The position numbers and the translations under genes are program-made. Below the pieces are notes generated by a model that was not told the origin of the DNA, searched no databases, and saw only the letters and a list, made by a program, of their open reading frames with translations. Shown here piece by piece: positions 3,076-17,885 of a stretch of DNA of 17,885 bases (position 1 is its first letter; each line of letters starts with the position of its first letter). This stretch comes from Lentisphaeria bacterium (GTDB taxonomy: Bacteria; Verrucomicrobiota; Lentisphaeria; Oligosphaerales; PUNB01): contig SLNM01000108.1 of assembly GCA_007133055.1 (NCBI GenBank), positions 1 through 17,885 of the forward strand, in the 5' to 3' direction.

Positions 3076-3152
3076 GGGGCATTAGCTCAGTTGGCTAGAG
3101 CGCTACACTGGCAGTGTAGAGGTCATCGGTTCGAGCCCGATATGCTCCACCA
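3076..3152 (+). tRNA. tRNA-Ala (anticodon GGC)
   Basis: A full cloverleaf folds by eye: acceptor GGGGCAT (3076-3082) with ATGCTCC (3142-3148), D stem GCTC/GAGC, anticodon stem CTACA/TGTAG around loop CTGGCAG (anticodon GGC at 3110-3112), variable AGGTC, T stem ATCGG/CCGAT with loop TTCGAGC, and an encoded CCA end (3150-3152). The acceptor has a G3:U70 wobble pair, the established alanine identity element, which confirms the amino-acid assignment. It reads GCC and GCU codons. Confidence 0.97.
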
Positions 3153-3979: not shown

Positions 3980-5101
3980 TTAAGATAGCGGCAGTATGGC
4001 TTTCCGGGTATGCGTTAAAATCTTAAAACTGGCGTTTATTACCCTGAGTTTGACGCAGCTTTTCCCGTCTGCATTGATCGGGCCAGACTTTCCATTGTTT
4101 CCATCAGGCTTCGGTTGTCTGAGGGAGCGCAGGTCTTTATGAGTTTCCCGTTTCGGATGGCCGATCACCCGGGGGGTGGCGTATCGGTCAAGCACACCGC
4201 TGAGCAGGTTCATGATCAGAATGGCGACGCCAATGCCGCCGGGCAATTGAAAAAGAATTCGTACGGCGGCGGTTATGCCGCCGACCATGAAAGCGAAGAC
4301 GATCCTGGCCTGGATCGTCAGTGGTCCCGAGCTATAGTCGGTCACCATATAGACAGCGGCGAAAATCAGGGTGCCGCTCAATACATGATAGGCGGTGAAA
4401 GTGAGGTTGAATCCACTGTACAGGAAGATGACAATCGCGGTCCCCAGCACGGCCATGGTCGGCACTCTGAGGTCGATCACTCTGCGCCATACCAGGTATG
4501 CAAACCCAAACAGGACAATGAACTTCGAGGTTTCCCCGATGCTGCCGCCCATGCACCCCCAGAAAAGGTCGCTCAGGGGCGGCAGCTCAGGCGATACGGT
4601 GCGGGTGAAATAGCCGATATGCTCGAGCGGGGTGGCTGTGCTGACGGCATCCGGCCCCGGGGTTACCCACTGGGTGATCCGCGGCTCGAAGAAGACTTTG
4701 AGCATCACTCTGGCGGCAACGGCGGGATTTAGGACGTTGCGGCCAATTCCTCCCGGAAGTTGTTTAACTACCACGATGGCAAAGGCGTTGCCGAGAATTA
4801 TCGACCATAAAGGGGCGGTCACCGGCAGCGACAACGCCACCAGCAATCCCGTTACCGCCGCGCTGAAGTCGCTCACAGTTACTTTTTTCCCGACCATTCT
4901 TTGATAGCCCGCTTCGATCAATACCGCGCTGCCAACGCCGACCGAGCACATGACCAGCACCCAGCCGCCGAAAAAATAGAGGCCGGCGGCGGCCGGGAAG
5001 AGCAGGGCGATAATCACATCCCGCATAATGCCGGCATCGGTCTGGCCGGTGAGCAGGTGGGGTGCCGGGTCCGTAGGCAAATGCCAAATCGTTGCTTGCA
5101 T
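3980..5101 (-). CDS. rnfD: Ion-translocating electron transport complex subunit RnfD
   Basis: This inner-membrane subunit belongs to the RnfD/NqrB family, which carries a covalently bound FMN and takes part in ferredoxin:NAD+ oxidoreduction coupled to Na+ or H+ transport. The 373-aa chain has about eight or nine hydrophobic helices, a conserved LPGGIGRNVLNPA loop (115-128) and the flavinylation motif STAT at 154-157, so T157 is the expected FMN-linked threonine. The family core ends near VIGHPK (about residue 318); the last ~50 residues are polar and unlike the usual C-terminus, as if read-through had extended the frame. Start 5101 has AAAGG 8 nt upstream. It follows rnfC by 73 nt. rnfG, expected next, is missing; a pterin dehydratase follows instead. 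Confidence 0.92.
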   Translation of the reverse strand: MQATIWHLPTDPAPHLLTGQTDAGIMRDVIIALLFPAAAGLYFFGGWVLVMCSVGVGSAVLIEAGYQRMVGKKVTVSDFSAAVTGLLVALSLPVTAPLWSIILGNAFAIVVVKQLPGGIGRNVLNPAVAARVMLKVFFEPRITQWVTPGPDAVSTATPLEHIGYFTRTVSPELPPLSDLFWGCMGGSIGETSKFIVLFGFAYLVWRRVIDLRVPTMAVLGTAIVIFLYSGFNLTFTAYHVLSGTLIFAAVYMVTDYSSGPLTIQARIVFAFMVGGITAAVRILFQLPGGIGVAILIMNLLSGVLDRYATPRVIGHPKRETHKDLRSLRQPKPDGNNGKSGPINADGKSCVKLRVINASFKILTHTRKAILPLS

Positions 5102-5174
5102 TTTATTGGCCTTTCCAGGGTTCTGTCAGATTATTTGCCCCTTCCTCTTATATGGCAGGGCATTTTATTTGCGC

Positions 5175-6521
5175 TTACAATTGAATACTGCTGTTCTGCG
5201 GCTTGCTGCGGGGAGCCTCGCTTTGCCTAAGTTGCTCCAGGCCGGCCATGATATCCTTCAGCAGGGGGATGCGGGAAGGACAGATATAAGTGCAGCATCC
5301 GCAGTAAATGCATGATTCGGCTTTGAGCACCTTGCACAAATCCAAGCGACCGGCGCGCCGGGCGTTGCTGATCAGAATAGGCTGCAAGTTGACCGGGCAC
5401 ACATCAATGCACTTGGCGCAGCGAATACAGGCTCTTTCCTCTGGTCGGACGCGGGCTTCCGCGCCGAAACACAAGATAGTGGTGGTGTCTTTGACGACCG
5501 GAATCTCCGGGGCACTGAATGGTCTGCCCATCATAGGGCCGCCGTTGATCATCTTGCCGACATCCCCGGTAAAACCACCGCAAAAATCGACCAGCTCCCG
5601 CACGGGCGTTCCCACACGTGTCAGAACATTCTGCGGATTGGCAATGACCGGCCCCGTAACTGTAATGACCCGCCTGACTAAAGGTCTGCCCATGAAGACG
5701 GCGTCGTGTACAGCCTTGACAGTGCTGACATTGGAGGTGAGGATTCCCATTTCATTGGGGAATTTGCCCTGCGGAATCTCCAGTCCGAACACACTTCTGA
5801 GCAGCACCCCCTGATCGCCCTGCGGATAGCGGCCATGCACCTTTCTGATCCGGATATGCTTGTATCCCAAATCCCCGGCCACTTCTTGCAGCCTGGCAAT
5901 CGCATCCGGCTTGTCGTCTTCGATTGCAATCACATTATGTTCAGTGTTGAAAAGCCGGCGCAGCAACTCAACCGTGTGCAGTATTTCCGGGGCATATTCC
6001 AGCATTGTCCGGTGATCGGTGGTGGAGAAAGGCTCGCATTCAGCGCCGTTGATCAGCACGTAGCGATGTCTTTGATTGCGCGGTGAGAGCTTGACATGGG
6101 CGGGGAAGCCGGCGCCGCCTTTGCCGGTAATTCCGGCGTCCCGAAGTCGGCCGAAAAACTTTTCGGCGGAAATACTTTCATCCAGCGGTTCCAGCCACTG
6201 TTTATCGTCGAGACCGTTGTTTTCAATCACGACCGACAATGTTGGCCCTCGGAAGCTGTCTCTCTGTTCAATCGCTTTCACGGTGCCGGAAACCGAGCTG
6301 TGGATATTGGCCGAGATATGCTGCGGTGCCCTGCCGACCTGGGTGCCGATTCTTACCTGGTCGCCGACTTTCACACATACCTCGGCCGGGACGCCCGAGT
6401 GCATCATCATGGGGAAGACCAGTTCACTGGGAATCGGTCCTTCGACAATCGGTTTGCCGGCGGTCAATTCCTTATGGCCCGACACGGGCACTCCTTTCCG
6501 AGGTCTTAATAATCTTTGCAT
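5175..6521 (-). CDS. rnfC: Electron transport complex subunit RnfC
   Basis: This is the membrane-peripheral NADH/FMN and iron-sulphur subunit of Rnf, related to the NADH-binding subunit of complex I. The 448-aa sequence has GKGGAGFPAHVKL (about 133-145, the flavin/NAD-site glycine loop), INGAECEP, a biotinyl-lipoyl-like segment near residues 50-85 and two C-terminal 4Fe-4S motifs: C365-x2-C368-x2-C371-x3-C375-P and C404-x2-C407-x2-C410-x3-C414-P. Length is normal for a compact RnfC. Start 6521 has AGGAG 7 nt upstream. It is the first intact gene of the minus-strand unit and lies 60 nt after a broken outer-membrane-protein gene that may have shared its promoter. Confidence 0.95.
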   Translation of the reverse strand: MQRLLRPRKGVPVSGHKELTAGKPIVEGPIPSELVFPMMMHSGVPAEVCVKVGDQVRIGTQVGRAPQHISANIHSSVSGTVKAIEQRDSFRGPTLSVVIENNGLDDKQWLEPLDESISAEKFFGRLRDAGITGKGGAGFPAHVKLSPRNQRHRYVLINGAECEPFSTTDHRTMLEYAPEILHTVELLRRLFNTEHNVIAIEDDKPDAIARLQEVAGDLGYKHIRIRKVHGRYPQGDQGVLLRSVFGLEIPQGKFPNEMGILTSNVSTVKAVHDAVFMGRPLVRRVITVTGPVIANPQNVLTRVGTPVRELVDFCGGFTGDVGKMINGGPMMGRPFSAPEIPVVKDTTTILCFGAEARVRPEERACIRCAKCIDVCPVNLQPILISNARRAGRLDLCKVLKAESCIYCGCCTYICPSRIPLLKDIMAGLEQLRQSEAPRSKPQNSSIQL

Positions 6522-7052: not shown

Positions 7053-7081
7053 TTGACAACTCCGCATGGTCGGACTATAAT
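7053..7081 (+). promoter_or_regulatory. Perfect consensus sigma-70 promoter
   Basis: TTGACA (7053-7058), exactly 17 bp, then TATAAT (7076-7081): all 12 consensus bases at ideal spacing. It begins 18 bp after the right end of the MITE-like element. Transcription would start near 7088, giving a leader of roughly 370 nt before the TPR/porin gene, or a separate untranslated RNA. Confidence 0.75.
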
Positions 7082-7459: not shown

Positions 7460-10400
7460 ATGCTTGACCAACTAAGACTACGAAGTTGTTTTCTTTATGG
7501 CTTGGTTAGTTTTTTGCTAATATTTGTTTATCTTCCCGTTCTTCGGGCTGGGGATGGCATTGGCGAAGTTGACAAGTATGCCGAGGCCCGTCGATTGTAC
7601 GAGCAGGGGGTTTTGGGCGAGTCGGCTCGCCTGCTTCGTTCTCACCTTGACACTGAACCTACCGATTTCAACGCACGCAAGTTGCTGGCCCGCATTTACC
7701 TTGACTTGGAAGACTTTTATCGTTTGCACGAGCAGGCCATTCTGCTTGTCGAGCAGCGTCCCGAGGATGGCGACGGGCAGCGGTGGCTGGAGCTGGCACG
7801 CCGGGAAATCGAGCGCCTGCGGCCGCAGAGACTGGCTGAGCTGCGGGAGGCGGTGCGGCATGATCCGGAGAATGTCGCGCTGCGAGTGCAACTGGCCGAA
7901 ATGTATGTTCGCATGGAGGAGGAGGCTCGGGCGGTCGAAGCGTTTGAAAGTGCCTACGAGCTGCGTCCGGACGACCCTGGTTTAACCCTGGCCTATGCCC
8001 GGTTTCTAGTTTCGCTGGAGCGTTTCGACCGGGCCGAGGAATTATATTTGGCCTACTTGTCGTTGCCTGAGGAACCCGACCCGCGGGTGCGCCAGGAGAT
8101 GTTCGACGTTCTGCTGGCGCCTGGCATGAGACATTTGGAGGAGGGGGAGCTTGACGATGCCATTGAGCATTACCAGCGGGTTGTCGAGCGTTATCCCGAG
8201 GAGTTGCATTTGCGTTTGCAGTATGCCCGCATGCTTTCCTGGGCCGAGATGTACGAGGAGTCGGTGGAAGTCTATGAAAGCTATCTGGAAGAAAAGGACG
8301 ACCCGCAGGTTCGTCTGGATAAGATCAGGGCAATGGCCTGGCAGGGCGCTTTCCCGGCCGCCGCCCGCCGATTGCGGGTTATGCTGGAGGAGGAGCCGGA
8401 GAATCTTGGCGCGATGAATTTGCTGGCCGACATATATCGGTGGAACGATGACATGGACATGGCCGAACGCCTTTACCGGCAGGTGCTGGAGCTGGATCCG
8501 GACAATCAGGATGCGCTCAGTGGTTTGCAGGAGCTGACTCGGATGGACGAGGTGCGCCGGGAGGAGGCGCGCCGCTACAGTATTCCCTACATGGAGGAGC
8601 TGCATCGGCAGAATCCGGACGACCCGGATGTCAGGCTGCAACTGGCCCGCCTGTACACTGCCGCCGGCCGACATCCATTGGCTCGCAGTCACTATGCTTT
8701 TTACCTTGGGCGTCGCCCCGATGAAATTCATATTCGGCGTGAGTATGCCGCTGTTCTCAGCAACATCGACGACTACGACGAGGCCATCCGCCAATTACGG
8801 ATAGTGCTGGATGATCATCCCGACGACGTTGCCAGCCGGATGCAAGTGGCCAACATGCTGATGTGGTTGAGTCGCCACCATGAAGCCGAGCGCGAGCTGC
8901 GGACTCTGCTGGAGTATATTCCGGAGAATCCGGAGGTGCATTGGAATCTCGGTCGCATCGCTCAGATTTTTGCCGATTGGGAGCCGGCTTTGGAGCATTA
9001 CCGCCGGGTTTTGGAATTGGCTCCGGAATATCGGGTGGCGGCGGCCCGGATTGTTGCGATCGAGGCGAATCCTTTTCGTCGTCTGGCCGCCAAGGAGGCG
9101 GCGGTGGAGCGAGCGCCCGACGATATTCAGGCTCGCATGGCGCTGGCCAACCTGCTGTTCGAGATGGAGCGCTATTATGAAGCTCGCATCCAGGCCGAGG
9201 CGGTGCTTGCCAGGCGGCCCCGGCATTTCGAGTCGGAGCGGCTGAAACAGCGGGCGGACAACATACTCGAGCGCCATCGGGCCAACCAAATTCGCGAGCT
9301 GCGCACGCAGTTGCGTGCGAATCCGCGCGACCTGGACCGCCATCTTGAGCTGGCCCGTCTGCTCAAGCAGGACGGTGCCTATCGCGAAGCCAAAGTTCGT
9401 TTTCGCTTGTATTTGCGTGCCTATCCCGATGACTTTGACGCGCGGCTGGAGTATGCGGAGATGCTTTCCTGGGCTCCCGAGTATCAGCATTTGGCGGCCG
9501 ATGAATATCGCGAGCTGGCGGCCATGCGCCCCGACGACTACGAGCTGCAATTGCAGAAAATTCGGATTCTAACCTGGCGTCCCGAGCACTGGCGCGAGGC
9601 GGAGGCGGAGCTTGAGGAGTTGTTGATACTGGACCCGGAAAACTGGGAGATGTACACGGCCATGGCCGAGCTGCACCGCTACCAGGGGCGCTATGCCCAG
9701 GCTCGTGAGATGTATGAAACTATCGAGCAGATTGACCCCGGCAACCCGCAGGCTCGCGAAGGCTTGGAAGAGATTGACAAGCAATTGCGGTCGCGGTTTG
9801 ACTTCACCATGGGGATGATGAGCGACAGCGACAGTTATACCGAGGCGATGATCGGAGGGCGCTACCATTCTTTCAGCCAGGACGGCACAAGATATACGGC
9901 GGGTCTGACTCTCTATAATTTCAGCCAGGGCGGTGACGGCAGTGCTTCGGCATTGATGCTGACCGGTGAAATCGCCTCGCGCCTGGCGGAGAATCTGGTG
10001 GGGTCGGCCCGGCTTGACCTGGGCGCCTACAGCATGGGCGGCTCGATTGTCTCCGGCGGCCTGCGCGGCAGTTACGCCATGGACCCGATCAACACGTTGT
10101 CTTTGGAGTATCGCGGTTACCCGGCTATTCACGAGGTGAAGACAGTTCGTTCTCTGGCCCAGGATATCAGTGTTGACAAAGTTACCTTTGCCTGGGACAG
10201 CAATGCCCCCTTGCAGGTTGCTCACAGAGGGACGCTCGAGCGTTTGTTTTTCGAGGGATATATCAGCTTTGCCTCATTCTCCGACGGTAATCAGCGGACC
10301 GCATTTTTGGTTCGGCCCTATTATCGGTTCAGAGACCGGGTTGACCGTCAGCCTGCGCTGGATGTCATGGTTGGCTGGCGTGGTTTGGCCTATACTCAGC

Positions 10401-10687
10401 AATCGGATTTCTACTGGTCACCGGTCAGCCATGCCGGTCCGATGCTGGGTGCGCGGGCGCAGGGCGGACTTGGCTGGGATATCGATTACGTAGCTGAGTT
10501 CGAGGTGTTCATCCCCGGCGGCGAGGAGGGCGGTGGTGGGACGCGGAATCTGAGTCTGAACTTGAATCGACCCGTCTCCGATAGTTGGATCGGCGCACTT
10601 AATTTTAATTTCGGACAGTCGGGGCGGGACGAGGAGGGCACCTATACCTATGCCGGAGTTATTTTTGAACTGTTGCATGAGTTCTAG
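7460..10687 (+). CDS. TPR-rich outer-membrane exopolysaccharide export porin
   Basis: The 1075-aa protein has three parts. Residues 1-30 are a signal peptide ending VLRA. Residues about 35-775 are a continuous series of tetratricopeptide repeats (roughly 18-20 units by eye, with repeated A-x2-LY-A/Y and P-x-D/N turns such as LELDPDNQDA). From about 777 (RSRFDFTMGMM) to the end come some 300 residues of alternating beta-strand sequence ending in FELLHEF with a terminal phenylalanine, as in an outer-membrane barrel. This is the layout of PgaA, PelB and BcsC, in which periplasmic TPRs bind the polymer or its modifying enzyme and a 16-strand barrel exports it. Size is between PgaA (about 800 aa) and PelB (about 1190 aa). 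Start ATG 7460 has a GGGG-containing site upstream. It leads the exopolysaccharide gene set. Confidence 0.85.
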   Translation: MLDQLRLRSCFLYGLVSFLLIFVYLPVLRAGDGIGEVDKYAEARRLYEQGVLGESARLLRSHLDTEPTDFNARKLLARIYLDLEDFYRLHEQAILLVEQRPEDGDGQRWLELARREIERLRPQRLAELREAVRHDPENVALRVQLAEMYVRMEEEARAVEAFESAYELRPDDPGLTLAYARFLVSLERFDRAEELYLAYLSLPEEPDPRVRQEMFDVLLAPGMRHLEEGELDDAIEHYQRVVERYPEELHLRLQYARMLSWAEMYEESVEVYESYLEEKDDPQVRLDKIRAMAWQGAFPAAARRLRVMLEEEPENLGAMNLLADIYRWNDDMDMAERLYRQVLELDPDNQDALSGLQELTRMDEVRREEARRYSIPYMEELHRQNPDDPDVRLQLARLYTAAGRHPLARSHYAFYLGRRPDEIHIRREYAAVLSNIDDYDEAIRQLRIVLDDHPDDVASRMQVANMLMWLSRHHEAERELRTLLEYIPENPEVHWNLGRIAQIFADWEPALEHYRRVLELAPEYRVAAARIVAIEANPFRRLAAKEAAVERAPDDIQARMALANLLFEMERYYEARIQAEAVLARRPRHFESERLKQRADNILERHRANQIRELRTQLRANPRDLDRHLELARLLKQDGAYREAKVRFRLYLRAYPDDFDARLEYAEMLSWAPEYQHLAADEYRELAAMRPDDYELQLQKIRILTWRPEHWREAEAELEELLILDPENWEMYTAMAELHRYQGRYAQAREMYETIEQIDPGNPQAREGLEEIDKQLRSRFDFTMGMMSDSDSYTEAMIGGRYHSFSQDGTRYTAGLTLYNFSQGGDGSASALMLTGEIASRLAENLVGSARLDLGAYSMGGSIVSGGLRGSYAMDPINTLSLEYRGYPAIHEVKTVRSLAQDISVDKVTFAWDSNAPLQVAHRGTLERLFFEGYISFASFSDGNQRTAFLVRPYYRFRDRVDRQPALDVMVGWRGLAYTQQSDFYWSPVSHAGPMLGARAQGGLGWDIDYVAEFEVFIPGGEEGGGGTRNLSLNLNRPVSDSWIGALNFNFGQSGRDEEGTYTYAGVIFELLHEF

Positions 10688-10772
10688 CCTGCTTGACGAA
10701 TGCGCAGTCTGAAACCTGGATGTCTTTGTCGCGAGCTTTGTAGAGTGTTGTTTATGAAATGGGAAATCGGTT

Positions 10773-10850
10773 GACGATAGCGGGCGACGATAGCGGATTA
10801 CGATTATAGAGTGCCCCAATCGTCCATCGCTCTCGTCGTCCGCTATCGTC
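10773..10850. repeat. Long imperfect hairpin between export porin and deacetylase genes
   Basis: Arms 10773-10804 and 10819-10850 (32 nt each, 26 of 32 complementary) surround a 14-nt loop. Both arms begin with GACGATAGCGG. The left arm resembles the reverse complement of 6965-6994 in the MITE-like element, so it probably derives from the same repeat family. It fills most of the 226-bp gap between two genes of the locus; T-rich runs (10867-10882) follow, so it might also attenuate transcription. I see no convincing promoter in this gap. Confidence 0.6.
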
Positions 10851-10913
10851 GGCCGAACGGGACAAGTTTTTTTGTTTTTTTTAGTGAACATTAAAAAAGG
10901 ATGGTTTTCAACC

Positions 10914-12716
10914 ATGAAAAGCGCGTATGTAAAGCAGTTGTCATCGCCGGGGTTGGCCATGTTCATGGTCTGGCTGGCGCTGATTCTGTGCATGGCTGTT
11001 TGGGGTCCATCGGCTCGGGCGATCAGCCGGGTGGCCATACTGGATTCTCGACTGGGCTCATTGCTGGCCGCTGACCAGAGGGTTGACGAGGATGAGGCAT
11101 GGCGCGAGCGACCGTTGCTGTGGCAGAACCTGCTGCGCGGATTATTCGACCATGTCGACGTGGTGTCCGGTGAAAGGCTGGAGGGGGATGCATTGCAGGG
11201 CTACGATCTTTTGGTAGTGCCCGACACTTCGTTGCTGACCCCGCAGCAGAAGGAAGTGGTGCTGGGGTTTCTGCGCCGCGGCAACTCAGTCATCCTGACC
11301 GCGCGCAGCGGTGCCGAATCGACCAGCGAGCGTGATCCCGACAGCCTGGCCCGGGCTTTGTCTTTGACTTATCATCCGGTCGAGCCGTCCGGTGCCAGTT
11401 CTTCGATTTCCTGGTGGGTAGTTATGGATCAGCCTTCCTATCTGTCGGCGGGGATACCCGTTTTGCAGCATCTGGCGGTTGAGGCGCCGTTGCCGGTTGC
11501 CGCCTCCGGCTCTGCCCGGTCGCTGGCATTCTGGATGGAGACCGGGGAATCAGATGAAGACTTTGGCAGTGGCGCCGCCCGCTCCGCCATACGCTACGGC
11601 AGGTTCGGGGAAGGTCGTTTTCTGTGGCTTGGATTCACCATTGACGGGGTGGGCGGGGATTTGGCCACCAGTCATGCATTTCATCAGTTGCTGAGCAATG
11701 CCACCAGTTGGTTTCGCGGCCAGGCGGTGGTCGAGATGGGCAACTGGCCCCATCCCCATCAGGCCGCGGTGATTTTTTCGATGGATACCGAGACCGCCTT
11801 CGGCAACCTATATGAAGTCAACGCCCTTGAAAACCTTGATTATATCACCTACTTTCTACTTACCGACGCGGCTGGCCTGTACACGCATCTTTTACGTGAA
11901 ATAGCCAGTCGGCGCCGGGAGGGAACTGCCACCGCCGAGCTGGCGGTACACGGGGACAACCATGATGTTTTCAGAGGCGAGTCGCGGTCGGTGCAGACTG
12001 CCCGGCTGCGGCGAACCCGGCATTATATCGAGGAGGAGACGGGGATGCGTCCGGTTGGCTTCAGGCCGCCCGAGGAGGCATACGACTACGCCACCTTGCA
12101 GAGCCTGGTCGATACTGGGTTCACATATATTTTTGCCGACGACAATCCGATACGCAATACGCCGCGGGTAATCGAGGTGGAGAACCAGCGGCTGGTTCAG
12201 TTCCCCATGCTTAATCTGGACGACATAAAAACCATCGTGCTCAACGACTGGCCTGAACCCGAGGAGGTGCTCGATGTATATTTGCGGGATATGGGGCAGA
12301 TTTTCAGCCGGGAAGGCTTGTACATGGCCAATTTGCACACGCATGTGCTTGCCGGCCCCAACTACATAGGGGTATTGAGAGATCTCGTAGACTACACGGT
12401 GGCGCAGGGAGTCTGGCAGACCAACTGCCGGCAAATGGTGGACTGGTGGCTGCGGCGGGGTGCGGTTGATCTGGGTGTTCGGGAAACCCGCGATGGCACT
12501 CTGCGTTTCCGGGTGGTCAACGATGGTATCGAGATGATCGAGAATTTAAGCTTGTCTCTGTGGCTTCCCGAGGACGCCCGGCAGGTGCGTCTGGAGGTGA
12601 TGCCGGCACAAAGAAGAATTGTCGACTATCGTCAGGACGGCAACCGGATTATCTATTCGGTGCCGGTTCTGATGGCGGGCGACGGACAGGAATATCGTCT
12701 GACATGGCAAAGATAA
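10914..12716 (+). CDS. Exported NodB-type polysaccharide deacetylase with N-terminal GATase-like domain
   Basis: The 600-aa protein starts with a signal peptide or anchor (hydrophobic to about residue 33, then PSARA). Residues about 38-280 resemble a class I amidotransferase/ThuA-like fold (VAILDSR, later YDLLVVPDTSLLTPQQ and GNSVILTARSG), without its catalytic cysteine being evident. Residues about 285-510 are a NodB/CE4 domain: D291-T-E293 (motif 1, catalytic Asp with Glu in place of the usual second Asp), H346-x3-H350 (metal ligands), R384-P-P-E (motif 3) and L-H475-T-H477 (motif 5). The last ~80 residues look like a beta domain. It probably removes acetyl groups from a periplasmic polymer, as PgaB or PelA do. 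Start: ATG 10914 fits the signal peptide; the earlier in-frame TTG and GTG codons lack support. Its end overlaps the glycosyltransferase start by 13 nt. Confidence 0.85.
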   Translation: MKSAYVKQLSSPGLAMFMVWLALILCMAVWGPSARAISRVAILDSRLGSLLAADQRVDEDEAWRERPLLWQNLLRGLFDHVDVVSGERLEGDALQGYDLLVVPDTSLLTPQQKEVVLGFLRRGNSVILTARSGAESTSERDPDSLARALSLTYHPVEPSGASSSISWWVVMDQPSYLSAGIPVLQHLAVEAPLPVAASGSARSLAFWMETGESDEDFGSGAARSAIRYGRFGEGRFLWLGFTIDGVGGDLATSHAFHQLLSNATSWFRGQAVVEMGNWPHPHQAAVIFSMDTETAFGNLYEVNALENLDYITYFLLTDAAGLYTHLLREIASRRREGTATAELAVHGDNHDVFRGESRSVQTARLRRTRHYIEEETGMRPVGFRPPEEAYDYATLQSLVDTGFTYIFADDNPIRNTPRVIEVENQRLVQFPMLNLDDIKTIVLNDWPEPEEVLDVYLRDMGQIFSREGLYMANLHTHVLAGPNYIGVLRDLVDYTVAQGVWQTNCRQMVDWWLRRGAVDLGVRETRDGTLRFRVVNDGIEMIENLSLSLWLPEDARQVRLEVMPAQRRIVDYRQDGNRIIYSVPVLMAGDGQEYRLTWQR

Positions 12717-14062
12717 GAACCAAAGACTGGCTGTATTTGTTCGCCTTGCTGGCGCTGGGTCTGTTCCTGACCGGGTGGACTATCGTGGCCTATGTCATGC
12801 TGCTGATCAATGTTCGCGACATAGCCTCGATCTTCGTCAATGTCTCGACCACCATTCTGATTTTGTTTTTGGTGGTTCTGATGATGCGATACCTGCTGCT
12901 GCTGTGGGCGTCCTATCGCCAGCATCGCGAGTCTATTAGCTTCTCCGACCGGGAGCGGGCGGATTTCACTCCGACAGTCAGTGTGCTGGTGCCTGCCTAC
13001 AATGAGGGGCCGGGCATTGAGGGAGCCATTCAGTCCTTGCTTGACCTGGATTATCCTGAGTATGAAGTTGTGGTAATCAACGACGGCTCGGCCGACGACA
13101 CTTTCGAGCGGGCGCAAAAGTGGGCTGGGCGGCATGAGCGCGTCAATGTGGTGGTCTTGGACACCGGGCGCAATGTTGGCAAGGCCGAGGCATTGAATTT
13201 GGGCATTGCCAGATCACGCGGTGAAATCGTGGTCTGCATGGACGCCGATTCACGCCTGGAGCCGCAGTCGATTCGCCGCGGGGTCGCGCACTTTCTCGAT
13301 CCCGAAGTGTCGGCGGTAGCGGGCAATGTCAAGGTGGTCAATCGCAACAGCATGCTGACCCGGATGCAGGCGCTGGAATATCTCGAGGGTCTGAATCTGG
13401 TGCGTCGGGCTCAGGGTTATTTTCAGTGTGTCAACATTATACCCGGCCCGATGGGATTTTTTCGCCGCCATGTTCTTCAGGAAATTGGCGGCTATGAAAG
13501 CGACACATTTGCCGAGGACTGCGATCTGACGGTCAAGCTGCTCTCTCTCAACAAGCGCATCAACTACGAGCCTGAAGCGATTTCCTGGACCGAGGCGCCG
13601 GAGACCATTGGCGGTCTGATTACCCAGCGCTACCGCTGGACCCGCGGCATCCTGCAGTCGATTCGCAAGCACAAGTACGATTTGTTCCACGTGCGCCGGG
13701 CCGGCTTTATCAATTCCATTGTTCTGTGGTATATGCTGTTCGAGGCTATTGCCTGGCCGATGATGAATATTTTCGGCAACATTTTCTTTCTGGCGGTCAC
13801 CGCCTGGTACGGGGCGGTTCATCTGCTGATCCTATGGTGGATGATACTGCTGCTGCTGGACATGATTGCCGCCCTGCACACGGTGTCAATGGAGGAGGAG
13901 GAGCTGTCGTTGGTATTTTACTCGATACCGTACCGGCTGTTTTTTATTTTTGCGGTCGACGTAGCCAAGATGTTGTCCACCCTGGAGGAGTTTTTCGGGG
14001 TTAGGATGACTTGGGGGCACGTCGAGCGGCGTGGACGAATCATGCAAAAGGAGACCGGATAG
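12704..14062 (+). CDS. Processive family 2 glycosyltransferase (PgaC/IcaA-like synthase)
   Basis: The 452-aa inner-membrane enzyme has two N-terminal helices (about 9-65), a cytoplasmic GT-A domain and four or so C-terminal helices. All processive synthase motifs are present: VLVPAYNEG, D127 in INDGS, D180-A-D182 (metal binding), E271-D272 in TFAEDCDLT (catalytic base region) and Q308-RYR-W312. This pattern is shared with PgaC, IcaA, hyaluronan and cellulose synthases; overall layout is closest to PgaC, so an N-acetylhexosamine polymer is a reasonable guess, supported by adjacent deacetylases. No PilZ domain is attached. The ATG at 12704 overlaps the deacetylase end, implying translational coupling; longer in-frame starts would lie deep inside that gene and give a non-membrane leader. 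Confidence 0.9.
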   Translation: MAKIRTKDWLYLFALLALGLFLTGWTIVAYVMLLINVRDIASIFVNVSTTILILFLVVLMMRYLLLLWASYRQHRESISFSDRERADFTPTVSVLVPAYNEGPGIEGAIQSLLDLDYPEYEVVVINDGSADDTFERAQKWAGRHERVNVVVLDTGRNVGKAEALNLGIARSRGEIVVCMDADSRLEPQSIRRGVAHFLDPEVSAVAGNVKVVNRNSMLTRMQALEYLEGLNLVRRAQGYFQCVNIIPGPMGFFRRHVLQEIGGYESDTFAEDCDLTVKLLSLNKRINYEPEAISWTEAPETIGGLITQRYRWTRGILQSIRKHKYDLFHVRRAGFINSIVLWYMLFEAIAWPMMNIFGNIFFLAVTAWYGAVHLLILWWMILLLLDMIAALHTVSMEEEELSLVFYSIPYRLFFIFAVDVAKMLSTLEEFFGVRMTWGHVERRGRIMQKETG

Positions 14063-14063
14063 C

Positions 14064-14360
14064 ATGGAACTGGTAACCATTCTGGCAACTGTTATTTTGC
14101 TGGCGACCCTAATCACTTTATTCTTTTCGTTTGCGGCCTATTTCATCACGCGTGCCAAGAAGTTGCGCAGTGGCGGCGGCGACCGACCGTCATCGGAGTC
14201 AGGAGAGGGGGGCGAGGGCGGTTCTGTTCGGCTTACGCCTGCCCAGCGTGGTCGGGAGCTGTTTGAGCGCTACACTCCGGGGCAGTCGGAGTCGAAGTGG
14301 CAGGCACCAACCTCCTCGGCTTCAAACGAGCCGGCGGAAGAGGACGATCAATGGATGTAA
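14064..14360 (+). CDS. Small single-span membrane protein of the exopolysaccharide locus
   Basis: The 98-aa product has one transmembrane helix at about residues 4-28 (TILATVILLATLITLFFSFAA), a basic stop-transfer patch (RAKKLR) and a low-complexity, acidic, probably cytoplasmic tail rich in Gly, Ser and Glu. The tail includes an RELFERYTPGQ segment. ATG 14064 lies 1 nt after the glycosyltransferase stop and has AGGAG about 10 nt upstream; its stop overlaps the next start by 10 nt. Position suggests an accessory partner of the synthase, analogous to PgaD, but PgaD has two helices and I see no sequence likeness. Function is inferred only from context. Confidence 0.7.
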   Translation: MELVTILATVILLATLITLFFSFAAYFITRAKKLRSGGGDRPSSESGEGGEGGSVRLTPAQRGRELFERYTPGQSESKWQAPTSSASNEPAEEDDQWM

Positions 14361-16252
14361 GGACACGAAAGGTTCGGGTCACTTTTCTGTATCTGTTTCT
14401 GATCGGCATGTTGATCATTGCCGCCTCACTGGTTGCCCACCGCCTGGTCAGCCAGGAAATGCTGCGCCAGGACGGCAGTCTTCGGGGGATGTTCGAGTGG
14501 CTCCCATTCGTCAGCTCACGTCGGGTGCCCGGAGTGCGGGTGGCCATACTACGTTCCGAGCAGACGGCCAGGTTTTTGGTCGGGATGGCGGTGGCCGAGG
14601 ACAGGGACGGCGAGGAAACGCGGATTGCCTACCAGTCCATCGCCGATTTTTGGCAGAGCTACTTCAGGCGCCGTCAGATAGAGGCGGAAATAATCTCGGA
14701 CCACGACCTGGAGATTGGTTTAAACCGGTTCAATTTGTTGATTGTGCCGATGGCTCACTGTCTTTCCGAGAGCCAGATACAGGGGGTCAAAGATTTTCTC
14801 AGCCAGAGACGAGGGGTTATTCTGACCCATATAAGCGGCAACCGCGATGCCGACGGGGTTGAGCGGGACTGGTCTCTGACCGGGGACGTGGTCGGCGGCA
14901 CCCCATACTTTCTGCCGCTCAGGGATGACCGTCCCCAGCGCCTGCAACTGCTTGCCGAAATCCCGATTACACTTAACGCCCCGACTGCTTTCGAGCTTAT
15001 GGTTCATGGCTACAATCAGTTGATTGGCATGAACTTGCGGGAGAGCAGAGGGCACGCCGCAGGTCTCTGGGCGGATGGCGGGCGGGTTTTGCCGGGCGGG
15101 CCGTTCGAGGAGCATGCTGGGATGGTCCAAGGCTATTATCTTGGAGGTCGGTTCGCGTGGTTCGGCTTCGACGCCCAATCGGTGGACTCACCGTCGGAAA
15201 TGTGGCAGACCTTCGGCACCGTCATGGATGATGCGATCGACTGGGCGACTCATCGCACGGTCATCGGCAAGGCACCCTGGCCCGAGCATCGGGCTGCTGT
15301 CACTTTCGCAATCGATCCTCGGCAGGATTTCGTGCGAGCAGCGGAATTGCAGAGAGCTATGACCAGGCGTGGGGTCAGGCCCGGCTTTTTTGTCAACGCT
15401 CGCCAGGCCGCGATCAATCGCATGATTCTTGCTGAGATTGCTCCTTACGTTGAGTTTGCCCTCCAGCTTGATCTTCCGAATCCGGAGCTGCTGGAGTCAG
15501 GCCAGAGCCGCAACCTGGAAGCGCTTATTCGAACCCAGGTGAACGAGCTGAACGAGTACATGGATGCGCCCTTTGTTGGTTTCAGTCTGCCGGAGGCCGG
15601 GCGGTTGGACATTGATCGGCTGGCCCGGCTTGGCTTTGAATATATCTGGATCGACGAGGAGCGCAGGTTGTCGCCGAAGTATTCGCATTTGACCATGCAA
15701 CCTTTGTTCAGTCGTCGCCGGGCGCCGGTGCTGATCTATGAGAATTGGCTCGGGCGTAGGGAGGGACGGGATGATGCGGAGGCAGGCCGCCCGGAGCAGG
15801 TAGTGGAGGCGATGCGGAGTGAGCTTCGGCGGAAAGTGCGCCTGGGTGGAGTTTACACCATCAAACTGCGTTCTGACAGGCATGGCTCCCCGACCTACGT
15901 TTCCCTGCTTGACCGCTGGCTGTCGGAGCTGCCGCGCGAGCAAGTTTGGGTGGCCGCCCCCGGCGAGATCGCGAGCTGGTGGCGCATGCACGAGAACCTT
16001 AAGTTGGACATGCTTGAAACCGCCCCCGGTCGAATGACCCTGAAGATTTCCAATGAGGGTAGGGACGCGGTGCCGCGGTTCCGAGTCTTTATCTATCCGT
16101 CCCGACTGCCCGACAATGTCGTTATTCGGGCCGAACGCATTTATGTGCCGATCCCCGACTATCGTTTGGAGCGGGAATTGGAGCGGGTGGAGTTGGTGGT
16201 CGAACGCATGGGGGGGCGGGAAAACCGTACCTATTATATTGACTTTGAGTGA
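14351..16252 (+). CDS. Catalytically degenerate deacetylase-like paralogue (pseudoenzyme)
   Basis: The 633-aa protein is anchored by an N-terminal helix (about residues 11-33). It repeats the architecture of the upstream deacetylase: a GATase-like domain (VRVAILRSEQ, FNLLIVPMAHCLSESQIQ, GVILTHISGN), then a NodB-like domain and a C-terminal beta region ending TYYIDFE. The NodB domain aligns well with its neighbour, yet key residues are gone: motif 1 is D322-P-R instead of D-T-E, the HGDNH metal motif is replaced by LQLDLPN, motif 3 Arg is S412 (VGFSLPEAG against VGFRPPEEA), and LHTH is LRSD (507-509). It therefore should not bind metal or deacetylate; polymer binding or a scaffold/regulatory role is likely. 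ATG 14351 has AGGA 6 nt upstream; the frame's earlier ATG lies inside the preceding gene. Confidence 0.8.
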   Translation: MDVRTRKVRVTFLYLFLIGMLIIAASLVAHRLVSQEMLRQDGSLRGMFEWLPFVSSRRVPGVRVAILRSEQTARFLVGMAVAEDRDGEETRIAYQSIADFWQSYFRRRQIEAEIISDHDLEIGLNRFNLLIVPMAHCLSESQIQGVKDFLSQRRGVILTHISGNRDADGVERDWSLTGDVVGGTPYFLPLRDDRPQRLQLLAEIPITLNAPTAFELMVHGYNQLIGMNLRESRGHAAGLWADGGRVLPGGPFEEHAGMVQGYYLGGRFAWFGFDAQSVDSPSEMWQTFGTVMDDAIDWATHRTVIGKAPWPEHRAAVTFAIDPRQDFVRAAELQRAMTRRGVRPGFFVNARQAAINRMILAEIAPYVEFALQLDLPNPELLESGQSRNLEALIRTQVNELNEYMDAPFVGFSLPEAGRLDIDRLARLGFEYIWIDEERRLSPKYSHLTMQPLFSRRRAPVLIYENWLGRREGRDDAEAGRPEQVVEAMRSELRRKVRLGGVYTIKLRSDRHGSPTYVSLLDRWLSELPREQVWVAAPGEIASWWRMHENLKLDMLETAPGRMTLKISNEGRDAVPRFRVFIYPSRLPDNVVIRAERIYVPIPDYRLERELERVELVVERMGGRENRTYYIDFE

Positions 16253-16415: not shown

Positions 16416-16445
16416 TTGATATGGCATTGAACATAAATGTATAAT
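16416..16445 (+). promoter_or_regulatory. Putative sigma-70 promoter of the response-regulator gene
   Basis: TTGATA (16416-16421), 18 bp, then a perfect TATAAT (16440-16445). It lies about 70 bp before the response-regulator start, suggesting that this gene and the KaiC-like gene can be transcribed independently of the exopolysaccharide genes. Confidence 0.55.
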
Positions 16446-16515: not shown

Positions 16516-16893
16516 ATGGCAAAGATATTAATCATCGAGGATTCAAGCGAAGTTCAGGAGTGCTTGTCATGGACGGCTCGCAAGCTGGGGCATGAAGTCA
16601 CCGAAGCTGACACGGGCGACCAGGGATTGGAACTGGCGAAAGGACAGGATTTCGATTTGATTGTCTCCGACCTGCACATGCCCGGAAAGATTGAGGGAGT
16701 GGCGCTGATTGCCAAACTGCGGTCCAGCCGGCCTAAGACTCCGGTTATTGTCGTCTCCGGCTACCCTTCGGAATCGCTTGACGAATGCTATGCCTTGGGG
16801 GTCAAGGATTTTTTGGTCAAACCTTTCGAGCTGAGCTTTCTGTCGGATGTAATTGAAAGAGTTCTGGAGCAGAAGGGTGTTGGCATGGCCTGA
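16516..16893 (+). CDS. Stand-alone response-regulator receiver domain (CheY-like)
   Basis: The 125-aa protein is a single REC domain with nothing attached. Acidic pocket E8-D9, phospho-acceptor D52 (LIVSDLHMP), S81 in the T/S switch position (VIVVSGYPSE), aromatic switch near Y92 and K102 (FLVKPFE) are all present, so it should be phosphorylatable. No output domain means it signals by protein-protein contact. No histidine kinase is in the window. Start ATG 16516 has a GGCGGA site upstream; the longer frame from 16483 lacks one. The KaiC-like gene begins 86 nt later and is the obvious candidate partner. Confidence 0.9.
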   Translation: MAKILIIEDSSEVQECLSWTARKLGHEVTEADTGDQGLELAKGQDFDLIVSDLHMPGKIEGVALIAKLRSSRPKTPVIVVSGYPSESLDECYALGVKDFLVKPFELSFLSDVIERVLEQKGVGMA

Positions 16894-16979
16894 GCACGTC
16901 CGGCTGTTACGGCGAGCGCGTGATCCGGATTGCTTGTCGCAATTTTCTGTTGTTTGAGAGAAACGCAAGGATAGTAAGA

Positions 16980-17885
16980 ATGAAAAAAACACCGACCGGC
17001 GTTGGTTTCTTCGATCTGCGCTACGGCGGCATGCCCAGTGGCAGGTCGATGCTGCTAACCGGCTATCGCGGAGCGGGCAAGTCGATGTTCTGCTTGCAGT
17101 TTATCAAGCGCGGCCTGGAGCTGGACGAGCCGGCACTGATCCTGTCTGCCCAGTCCAGTCGCGAGCTGGCCATGCATGGCAAGGCGATCGGCATCGAGGT
17201 TGATGCTGAAACTGAGAATAATCGTCTGTTCATAATGAACTACGGCGATATTATTCAGGCCAACCATCGTGAGCAGGACATCATGCTGCCTCCCGAGGGA
17301 TTCACCGAATTGAAGGACATAATTGAACGCCGAGGCATTCAGAGGGTGGCTCTGGACACGGTGATTCCCTGGATGAACCTGACTACCAAGGGGCATCTGG
17401 CCGAGCACGTGGTCTCCTTTGTCAGAGCCTTCGAGAGAATGAAGACTACGGCTGTATTCACTCTGTACCAACCGGTTGCCCCGGCGGCTCTGAAGTTGCA
17501 TTCGCTCCTGGAGGAGGCTGTGCCGGTGGCGGTGACCATCGATTATAATTCGGCGGCCGGAACCAGATACTGGCGGGTTGACAAGTATTCAGGTGAAAAG
17601 ATGCAGGCTCAGCAGAGAAGAATCAAAATCGACCCGAAGGTCGGGGTCGTGCCCATGTCCGAGGTAGGCGAGGACTGGGAGATTGACTACAGTGATGCAC
17701 GCTTTGGCAAGACGGAGACCGTCAATCCGAAACCTCGGCCCTCCGGCTTTGCCGTCGGCTGGGGGGTGGACCGGGATACGGGGGAGGATGGCGGCGGTCG
17801 ATCCGGACAGAACGGACAGAACAGACAGAACGGACAGAACGGACAGAACGGACAGAACGGACAGAACGGACAGAACGGACAGAAC
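16980..17885 (+). CDS. KaiC/RecA-like ATPase with Gly-Gln-Asn repeat tail (partial, 3' end outside window)
   Basis: The first 302 residues are seen. The N-terminus reads TGVGFFDLRYGGMPSGRSML, the typical KaiC-domain entry, followed by a Walker A motif GYRGAGKS (28-35). A Walker B-like VALDTV occurs near residue 123, and a RecA-like core extends to about residue 225. Only one KaiC domain is present before a charged linker and a run of Gly-Gln-Asn triplets (from 17805). Such single-domain KaiC proteins are regulatory ATPases in many bacteria and archaea, often beside response regulators; the exact role is unknown. AAGGA lies 8 nt before ATG 16980. The frame is open at the window end. Confidence 0.8.
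   Translation, partial: MKKTPTGVGFFDLRYGGMPSGRSMLLTGYRGAGKSMFCLQFIKRGLELDEPALILSAQSSRELAMHGKAIGIEVDAETENNRLFIMNYGDIIQANHREQDIMLPPEGFTELKDIIERRGIQRVALDTVIPWMNLTTKGHLAEHVVSFVRAFERMKTTAVFTLYQPVAPAALKLHSLLEEAVPVAVTIDYNSAAGTRYWRVDKYSGEKMQAQQRRIKIDPKVGVVPMSEVGEDWEIDYSDARFGKTETVNPKPRPSGFAVGWGVDRDTGEDGGGRSGQNGQNRQNGQNGQNGQNGQNGQNGQN
17805..17885 (+). repeat. 9-bp tandem repeat encoding Gly-Gln-Asn, at least nine copies
   Basis: GGACAGAAC is repeated head-to-tail nine times up to the window edge, with one variant copy (AGACAGAAC at 17823-17831). It is exactly in frame with the KaiC-like gene, so copy-number change would alter protein length without frameshift. Confidence 0.95.

Follow-up and report, generated by a model that had tools for sequence, protein, structure and literature searches.

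Among the described machines for making and exporting sugar polymers, the Pga/Ica and Pel systems are the closest to the locus analyzed here. PelADA of Bacillus cereus is described in passages of PMC13254593 as a single-pass protein with the three-domain plan that is also met below, including an N-terminal CBM114 domain that binds oligomers of N-acetylgalactosamine, an esterase belonging to CE26, and a membrane helix modelled on PelG. The same passages call the link between the inner-membrane Pel machinery of Gram-negative bacteria and periplasmic deacetylation unclear. In PelA, the alpha/beta domain is predicted to contact the tetratricopeptide repeats (TPRs) of PelB, and the similar domain of fungal Agd3 has been proposed to bind carbohydrate (passages of PMC12022489). 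As for Pga, PMC7112194 notes environmental bacteria with pga organisations in which pgaB and pgaD were undetected; its main text names neither Verrucomicrobia nor Acidobacteria. The locus in question lies on contig SLNM01000108.1 (G000:C354) of a Lentisphaeria metagenome-assembled genome (MAG; 2.03 Mb, 68% complete), and the window, i.e. the whole stretch of DNA that was analyzed, is this entire contig of 17,885 nucleotides. Five plus-strand genes at 7460-16252, encoding a putative export porin, two deacetylase paralogues (deac1 and deac2), a glycosyltransferase (GT2) and a small membrane protein, are followed up to the contig end by genes for a response regulator and a KaiC-like protein:

7460..10687, + strand: TPR protein (1075 aa) with a C-terminal barrel-like domain at about 9770-10684, putative outer-membrane export porin
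10914..12716, + strand: deac1, exported three-domain de-N-acetylase (600 aa), active site intact as judged from its sequence
12704..14062, + strand: GT2 processive-type polysaccharide synthase (452 aa) of a distinct clade
14064..14360, + strand: one-span small membrane protein (98 aa), with a conserved helix containing an invariant Tyr26, and a variable tail
14351..16252, + strand: deac2, membrane-anchored three-domain paralogue (633 aa) with a degenerate esterase site
16516..16893, + strand: single-domain response regulator with the receiver Asp present, probable regulator (a receiver-KaiC fusion in relatives)
16980..17885, + strand: KaiC-like ATPase with an intact Walker A motif, truncated where the contig stops; a probable regulator

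From the porin gene to deac2 the genes are separated by a 226-nt gap, a 13-nt overlap, a 1-nt gap and a 10-nt overlap, in agreement with the original prediction that the five lie on one strand with the last four overlapping or 1 nt apart. On sequence grounds, the genes appear to form a variant, not described so far, of the machines for sugar-polymer synthesis and export, and we put the probability that it is a synthase-dependent exopolysaccharide (EPS) system of its own type, working by the steps proposed below, at roughly 50%. No description of this gene set was found in the open-licence literature, as represented by titles, beginnings of abstracts and chosen passages. In the passages of PMC7356697, on Pontiella EPS, the sole mention of a deacetylase concerns fucoidan breakdown. 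Relatives of the present system may nevertheless have been glimpsed, given the environmental pga organisations of PMC7112194 mentioned above.

Gene content was compared at 19 GT2 loci; a further locus, L050 (G001), breaks off within deac1 and was left out of these counts. Not judgeable were L084 for the porin and KaiC genes, L076 and L082 for deac2, and L076 for deac1, while L079 has broken frames. A member of the deac2 lineage was found in 16 of the 17 readable loci. The deac1 slot, on the other hand, was intact in only 8 of 18 (the window, L006, L008 with two copies, L074, L078, L080, L081 and L084) and degenerate in four (L046, L075, L077 and L082), with no deac1 seen in the other six (L048, L049, L072, L073, L083 and the frame-broken L079). 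Owing to this difference, the dead deacetylase counts as the constant partner. The original prediction of a distinct variant type stands in so far as the combination is real, conserved and outside the tested subfamilies, but its view of the two deacetylases needs changing: judged from sequence, the dead paralogue is what stays constant, and the active enzyme is what varies. The fixed structural part thus seems to be a deacetylase whose active site is gone, and a working one seems optional. In G151 and G187 (93% and 91% complete), no second deac1 match was obtained at E<=1e-15 among the three of seven candidates scored.

The loss of activity is read from the active site. Residues D291, E293, H346, H350, R384 and H475 of deac1 make up the CE4-type motif set and are invariant in 15/15 homologues, and the protein matches Pfam PF01522 with 32.5 bits (cut-off 23.1). 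Deac2, as had been predicted, is dead by the same measure: only the first Asp of the six motif residues is kept in the alignment, and no Pfam deacetylase matched at E<=0.1. The loss of the motif extends to the deac2 lineage. The N-terminus of deac1 is signal-peptide-like, while that of deac2 is a membrane helix, single as in PelADA (passages of PMC13254593). According to predicted models and domain matches, both proteins consist of an alpha/beta domain, an esterase barrel and a beta-rich domain, so that the plain CE4 plan assigned earlier should give way to the modelled three-domain plan of the Pel deacetylases, one apparently shared with human NDST1. PelA 9cgy is among the matches listed for the deac2 model (E 4.7e-7). 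The likeness to CE26 is one of domain plan, and the locus differs from Pel in its GT2 synthase, in having one of two paralogues dead, and in the lack of a GH166 domain. NDST1 and Agd3 also combine a non-catalytic, Rossmann-like N-terminal domain with a deacetylase barrel (passages of PMC10864358); in contrast to NDST1 there is no sulfotransferase here, and the whole-chain root-mean-square deviation (rmsd) is above 12. BLASTP of deac1 and deac2 against E. coli PgaB gave nothing below E 0.77; PgaB was not searched for genome-wide. CE4 pseudoenzymes of the BA3943 type have a single-domain fold, unlike deac2, and we know of no synthase operon that contains one. A wide deac2 profile search returned six proteins, all already known. 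All three PelA-like proteins of genome G043 lack an intact active site (L046:8524-11547, L047:4349-6601).

Phylogenetically, the deac2 lineage forms one clade (support 96 in a tree of 48 sequences) that spans phyla; trees and counts were made after removal of duplicates (P0006 and the second window copies). Genome pairs were drawn from four genomes with both proteins, namely the window, L006 and two whose contigs were paired by their equal length alone. In 6/6 pairs, conservation is highest in the esterase domain for deac1 and lowest in that domain for deac2, and in 6/6 the alpha/beta domain is more conserved in deac2 than in deac1. Five genomes of one small phylum gave mean values of 43% (deac2) versus 33% (deac1) for the alpha/beta domain and 30% versus 44% for the esterase domain, with no difference in the beta-sandwich. 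Columns of >=90% identity in the deac2 lineage (n=20) number 18/244 in the alpha/beta, 2/85 in the beta-rich and, where other conserved residues were sought, 3/238 in the esterase domain. The active set (n=23, without L046_d1 and the truncated L050_d1) has 8/236, 3/83 and 35/239, respectively; the degenerate deac1-slot proteins of L075, L077 and L082 are in neither set. Three residues are invariant in 20/20 deac2 proteins: Lys147 (0/17 deac1, 2/7 other active proteins), Arg233 (2/17 and 0/7) and Tyr263 (3/17 and 2/7). As far as the alignments tell, conservation in the deac2 lineage has moved from the esterase to the alpha/beta domain, a pattern that would fit a protein kept for binding and not for catalysis. 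We infer that deac2 may act as a membrane-anchored, polymer-binding hand-off subunit, a proposal that differs from PelADA, whose catalytic activity is required (passages of PMC13254593).

A Puniceicoccaceae MAG, from another order of the phylum, shows the full five-gene order without change, and the gene content is conserved in other phyla, which rules out a one-off arrangement. Counts from the larger profile searches are lower bounds, since only three or four candidates per genome were scored. The deac1 profile matched in at least 5 of the 387 genomes searched in the phylum (E<=1e-15) and in at least 1 of 297 genomes from the phylum to which an Acidobacteria MAG belongs (E<=1e-20). With the GT2 profile the numbers were at least 6 of 387 (E<=1e-90), 4 of 132 genomes from the order to which the Puniceicoccaceae MAG belongs (E<=1e-120, two being already among the six) and 10 of 39 in the small phylum (E<=1e-120).

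By hydropathy, the catalytic part of the synthase is flanked by two spans on each side, and the GT2 motifs are invariant in 7/7 aligned relatives. PgaC/IcaA is its best curated model, with 226 bits against a cut-off of 422.3. Seven clade members share 43-71% identity with each other and 26-28% with E. coli PgaC. A GT2 tree of 27 sequences was made from 18 of the 19 loci and nine others (PgaC, IcaA, NodC, BcsA, XrtG-type and further ones). In this tree, a core of 15 sequences separates from all the rest (support 84), and the core together with the L072/L073/L083 trio from the nine others (support 79), among which PgaC groups with IcaA. The window synthase is accordingly placed, by sequence, in a GT2 clade of its own. 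The best-scoring outgroup domains belong to Deinococcus and Sphingobium GH/CE4-GT2 fusions (282 and 264 bits), which differ in being one long protein with other neighbors. In the Bcs test, the CelA model gave 77 of 699 bits and the GT2 showed no PilZ match, nor did any other operon protein in the Pfam scan. At L048:8025-13498, a second, distant GT2 stands beside a protein of 1321 aa that contains TPRs and weakly matches a deacetylase, possibly a second polymer system or the missing exporter.

The one-span protein was found at all 19 GT2 loci (in L073 by reading the gap), and is a candidate counterpart of PgaD/IcaD, a role that the original prediction had not given it. PgaD was over cut-off in 0/10 genomes (control: matches in 2/14, over cut-off in one), and PelG was found in 0/10 at E<=0.01 (control 1/14); PelD, PelE and PelF were not searched for genome-wide. 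The one sub-threshold PgaD match (17.2 of 27 bits) falls inside the window GT2, where a fused PgaD might be read. With synthase scores below cut-off and neither PgaD nor PelG over cut-off in the ten genomes, a plain Pga, Pel or Bcs operon was rejected, and none of the tested subfamilies fits the proteins. Of the predicted absences, those of PgaD-like and PelG-like parts hold, over cut-off, in these ten genomes, and that of PilZ holds in the operon; the window genome has PilZ elsewhere.

A TPR protein precedes the GT2 or deac1 in 18/18 readable loci. In the window porin, which ends in Phe, the TPRs announced earlier are clear (TPR_19, E 6e-54), whereas the barrel is inferred: no barrel family matched the protein, and the PgaA model scores 85 of 367 bits. 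The case for it consists of a transitive profile match and a motif, i.e. the C-terminal profile matches that of relatives (97% probability, E 7e-11), one of which has a PgaA_barrel match below cut-off (23.0 of 27 bits), and the porin carries FSDGNQR, cf. FSDSNQR in E. coli PgaA. Against the PDB, the barrel sequence had a single chance-level match (E 0.89) and its profile none. With hhalign against E. coli PgaA, the window-type barrel aligned over 21 residues (4.4% probability) and the L072-type gave no useful alignment (0.3%).

A KaiC-like gene adjoins the operon at 13 of 18 readable loci. In the small phylum it lies 5' of the porin gene, overlapping it or within 12 nt in 8/9 loci, and its product is fused to receiver-like and GGDEF-like domains (L074:291-1970, with equivalents in L075-L082). 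Two of these fused proteins were scanned against Pfam: KaiC exceeded the cut-off in both and GGDEF stayed below it, and the receiver passed in one protein and narrowly missed in the other. A TIGR03015-related ATPase is also present in L006, L046 and L048 (122-164 of 324.5 bits); these scores, together with 160 of 312 bits for the porin and 19 of 276 for deac1 against the respective models, set the system apart from the XrtA/PEP-CTERM EPS locus. The original prediction should be extended, as the system probably includes the response regulator and KaiC-like genes at 16516-17885, which are separate in the window and have the receiver Asp and Walker A motif intact. The contig ends inside the KaiC-like gene with nine copies of a 9-bp repeat (CGGACAGAA, 17804-17885), which encodes a Gln-Asn-Gly-rich tail and may explain why assembly stopped there. 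At L079:603-6957, KaiC and porin share one frame of 1566 aa and the GT2 contains an in-frame TGA, which may reflect an assembly error or an unusual gene.

Concerning the polymer, the presence of an intact de-N-acetylase and a PgaC-related GT2 points to a beta-linked N-acetylhexosamine. GT2 enzymes invert, hence the proposed linkage, and N-acetylglucosamine (GlcNAc) is the most likely monomer because PgaC is the nearest curated model. A GH18 chitinase-like gene 11 nt after deac2 in L006 (L006:15225-16559) is a further hint of a GlcNAc polymer. In the proposed mechanism, the GT2 and the one-span protein would polymerise the sugar and extrude the chain across the inner membrane, where the membrane-anchored pseudo-deacetylase, sitting at the synthase exit, would bind it through its conserved alpha/beta domain and hand it on with the acetyl groups untouched. 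Deac1, where present and intact, would de-N-acetylate part of the chain in the periplasm, and the TPR porin would carry it over the outer membrane, with output set by the receiver domain working with the KaiC-like ATPase. At the six loci where no deac1 was seen, the chain may leave with its acetyl groups in place. Tentatively, and with somewhat less than even confidence, this could be a separate class of EPS machine in several little-studied phyla. Its regular exit subunit would descend from a de-N-acetylase that gave up catalysis and became a chain-binding adaptor anchored in the membrane, and a KaiC/receiver module would gate synthesis instead of operon-encoded sensing of cyclic di-GMP (c-di-GMP). 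In the systems compared, polymer-modifying proteins have been studied as enzymes; a constant non-catalytic paralogue would be a natural experiment separating the binding and guiding of a chain from its chemistry and, if true, the scheme would also provide a concrete output for KaiC-like ATPases outside cyanobacterial clocks.

Several observations weigh against a system of its own type as just outlined. L008 has the GT2 and the small protein, no deac2-lineage protein, and two intact deacetylases; the TPR protein is short and barrel-free in L048 and L049 (457 and 424 aa); PelA is not among the best 50 matches for deac1, and the domain arrangement of deac1 and deac2 cannot be superposed on NDST1 or PelA (rmsd 12-17). 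The small phylum's KaiC-like proteins do not seem to be catalytic, with Arg for Lys in Walker A in 9/9, the receiver Asp replaced in 8/9 (by eye) and no GGDEF string left, and no KaiC gene is near five of the 18 loci (L008, L049, L072, L073 and L083). GGDEF proteins occur in 9/10 and PilZ in 6/10 genomes, away from the operon except for one G721 GGDEF match that is the operon's own fused protein; the window genome has both, which leaves room for c-di-GMP control. The five KaiC-free loci, together with a 263-nt gap and a separate promoter-like site before the response regulator (the window scan gave 6 sites versus 4.9 expected by shuffling), could also mean that the genes at 16516-17885 are unrelated neighbors, which we find improbable given the recurrence at 13 loci and the close spacing and domain fusions in the small phylum.

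Another explanation is a divergent operon for poly-N-acetylglucosamine, with the polymer and logic of pgaABCD, PgaB replaced by the deacetylase pair, PgaD by the one-span protein, and no new mechanism. There are parallels, i.e. a TPR porin with a PgaA-like motif in its putative barrel, PgaC as best model of the GT2, a small membrane partner, a deacetylase, and the GH18 gene of L006; PgaD and IcaD are themselves non-homologous (passages of PMC7112194). The synthase is nevertheless remote from PgaC in score and identity and outside the PgaC/IcaA branch, no PgaB relative was found among the deacetylases by BLASTP, and the constant dead paralogue and the KaiC/receiver genes are foreign to pga, so that we regard this explanation as a serious one but somewhat unlikely. 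That deac2 is just a duplicate in decay, with no role of its own, as its loss of all motif residues but one might suggest, is hardly credible for one old clade kept at full length across phyla, even at loci where no deac1 is seen, with an alpha/beta domain that is better conserved than that of deac1, and with three invariant residues.

Some loci have neighbors of another kind. In L072, a VIT/VWA 'sortase target'-like protein and an exosortase (L072:2197-5675) lie directly 5' of the porin, GT2, small protein and deac2 genes, a link to surface protein sorting, and open reading frames of similar size occur in L073 and L083. An EpsI/DUF3485 (exosortase-associated) protein is encoded on the minus strand near the operon of L006 (L006:1408-2112). 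In the window, a sigma-70 consensus (12/12) was found at 7053-7081, about 380 nt 5' of the porin gene, and a second site (11/12) at 16416-16445, 5' of the response regulator. Further upstream, RnfD- and RnfC-like proteins are encoded on the minus strand at 3980-6521, as judged by reading the translations, and a tRNA gene at 3076-3149 (Rfam RF00005, 65 bits) overlaps the end of a minus-strand open reading frame.

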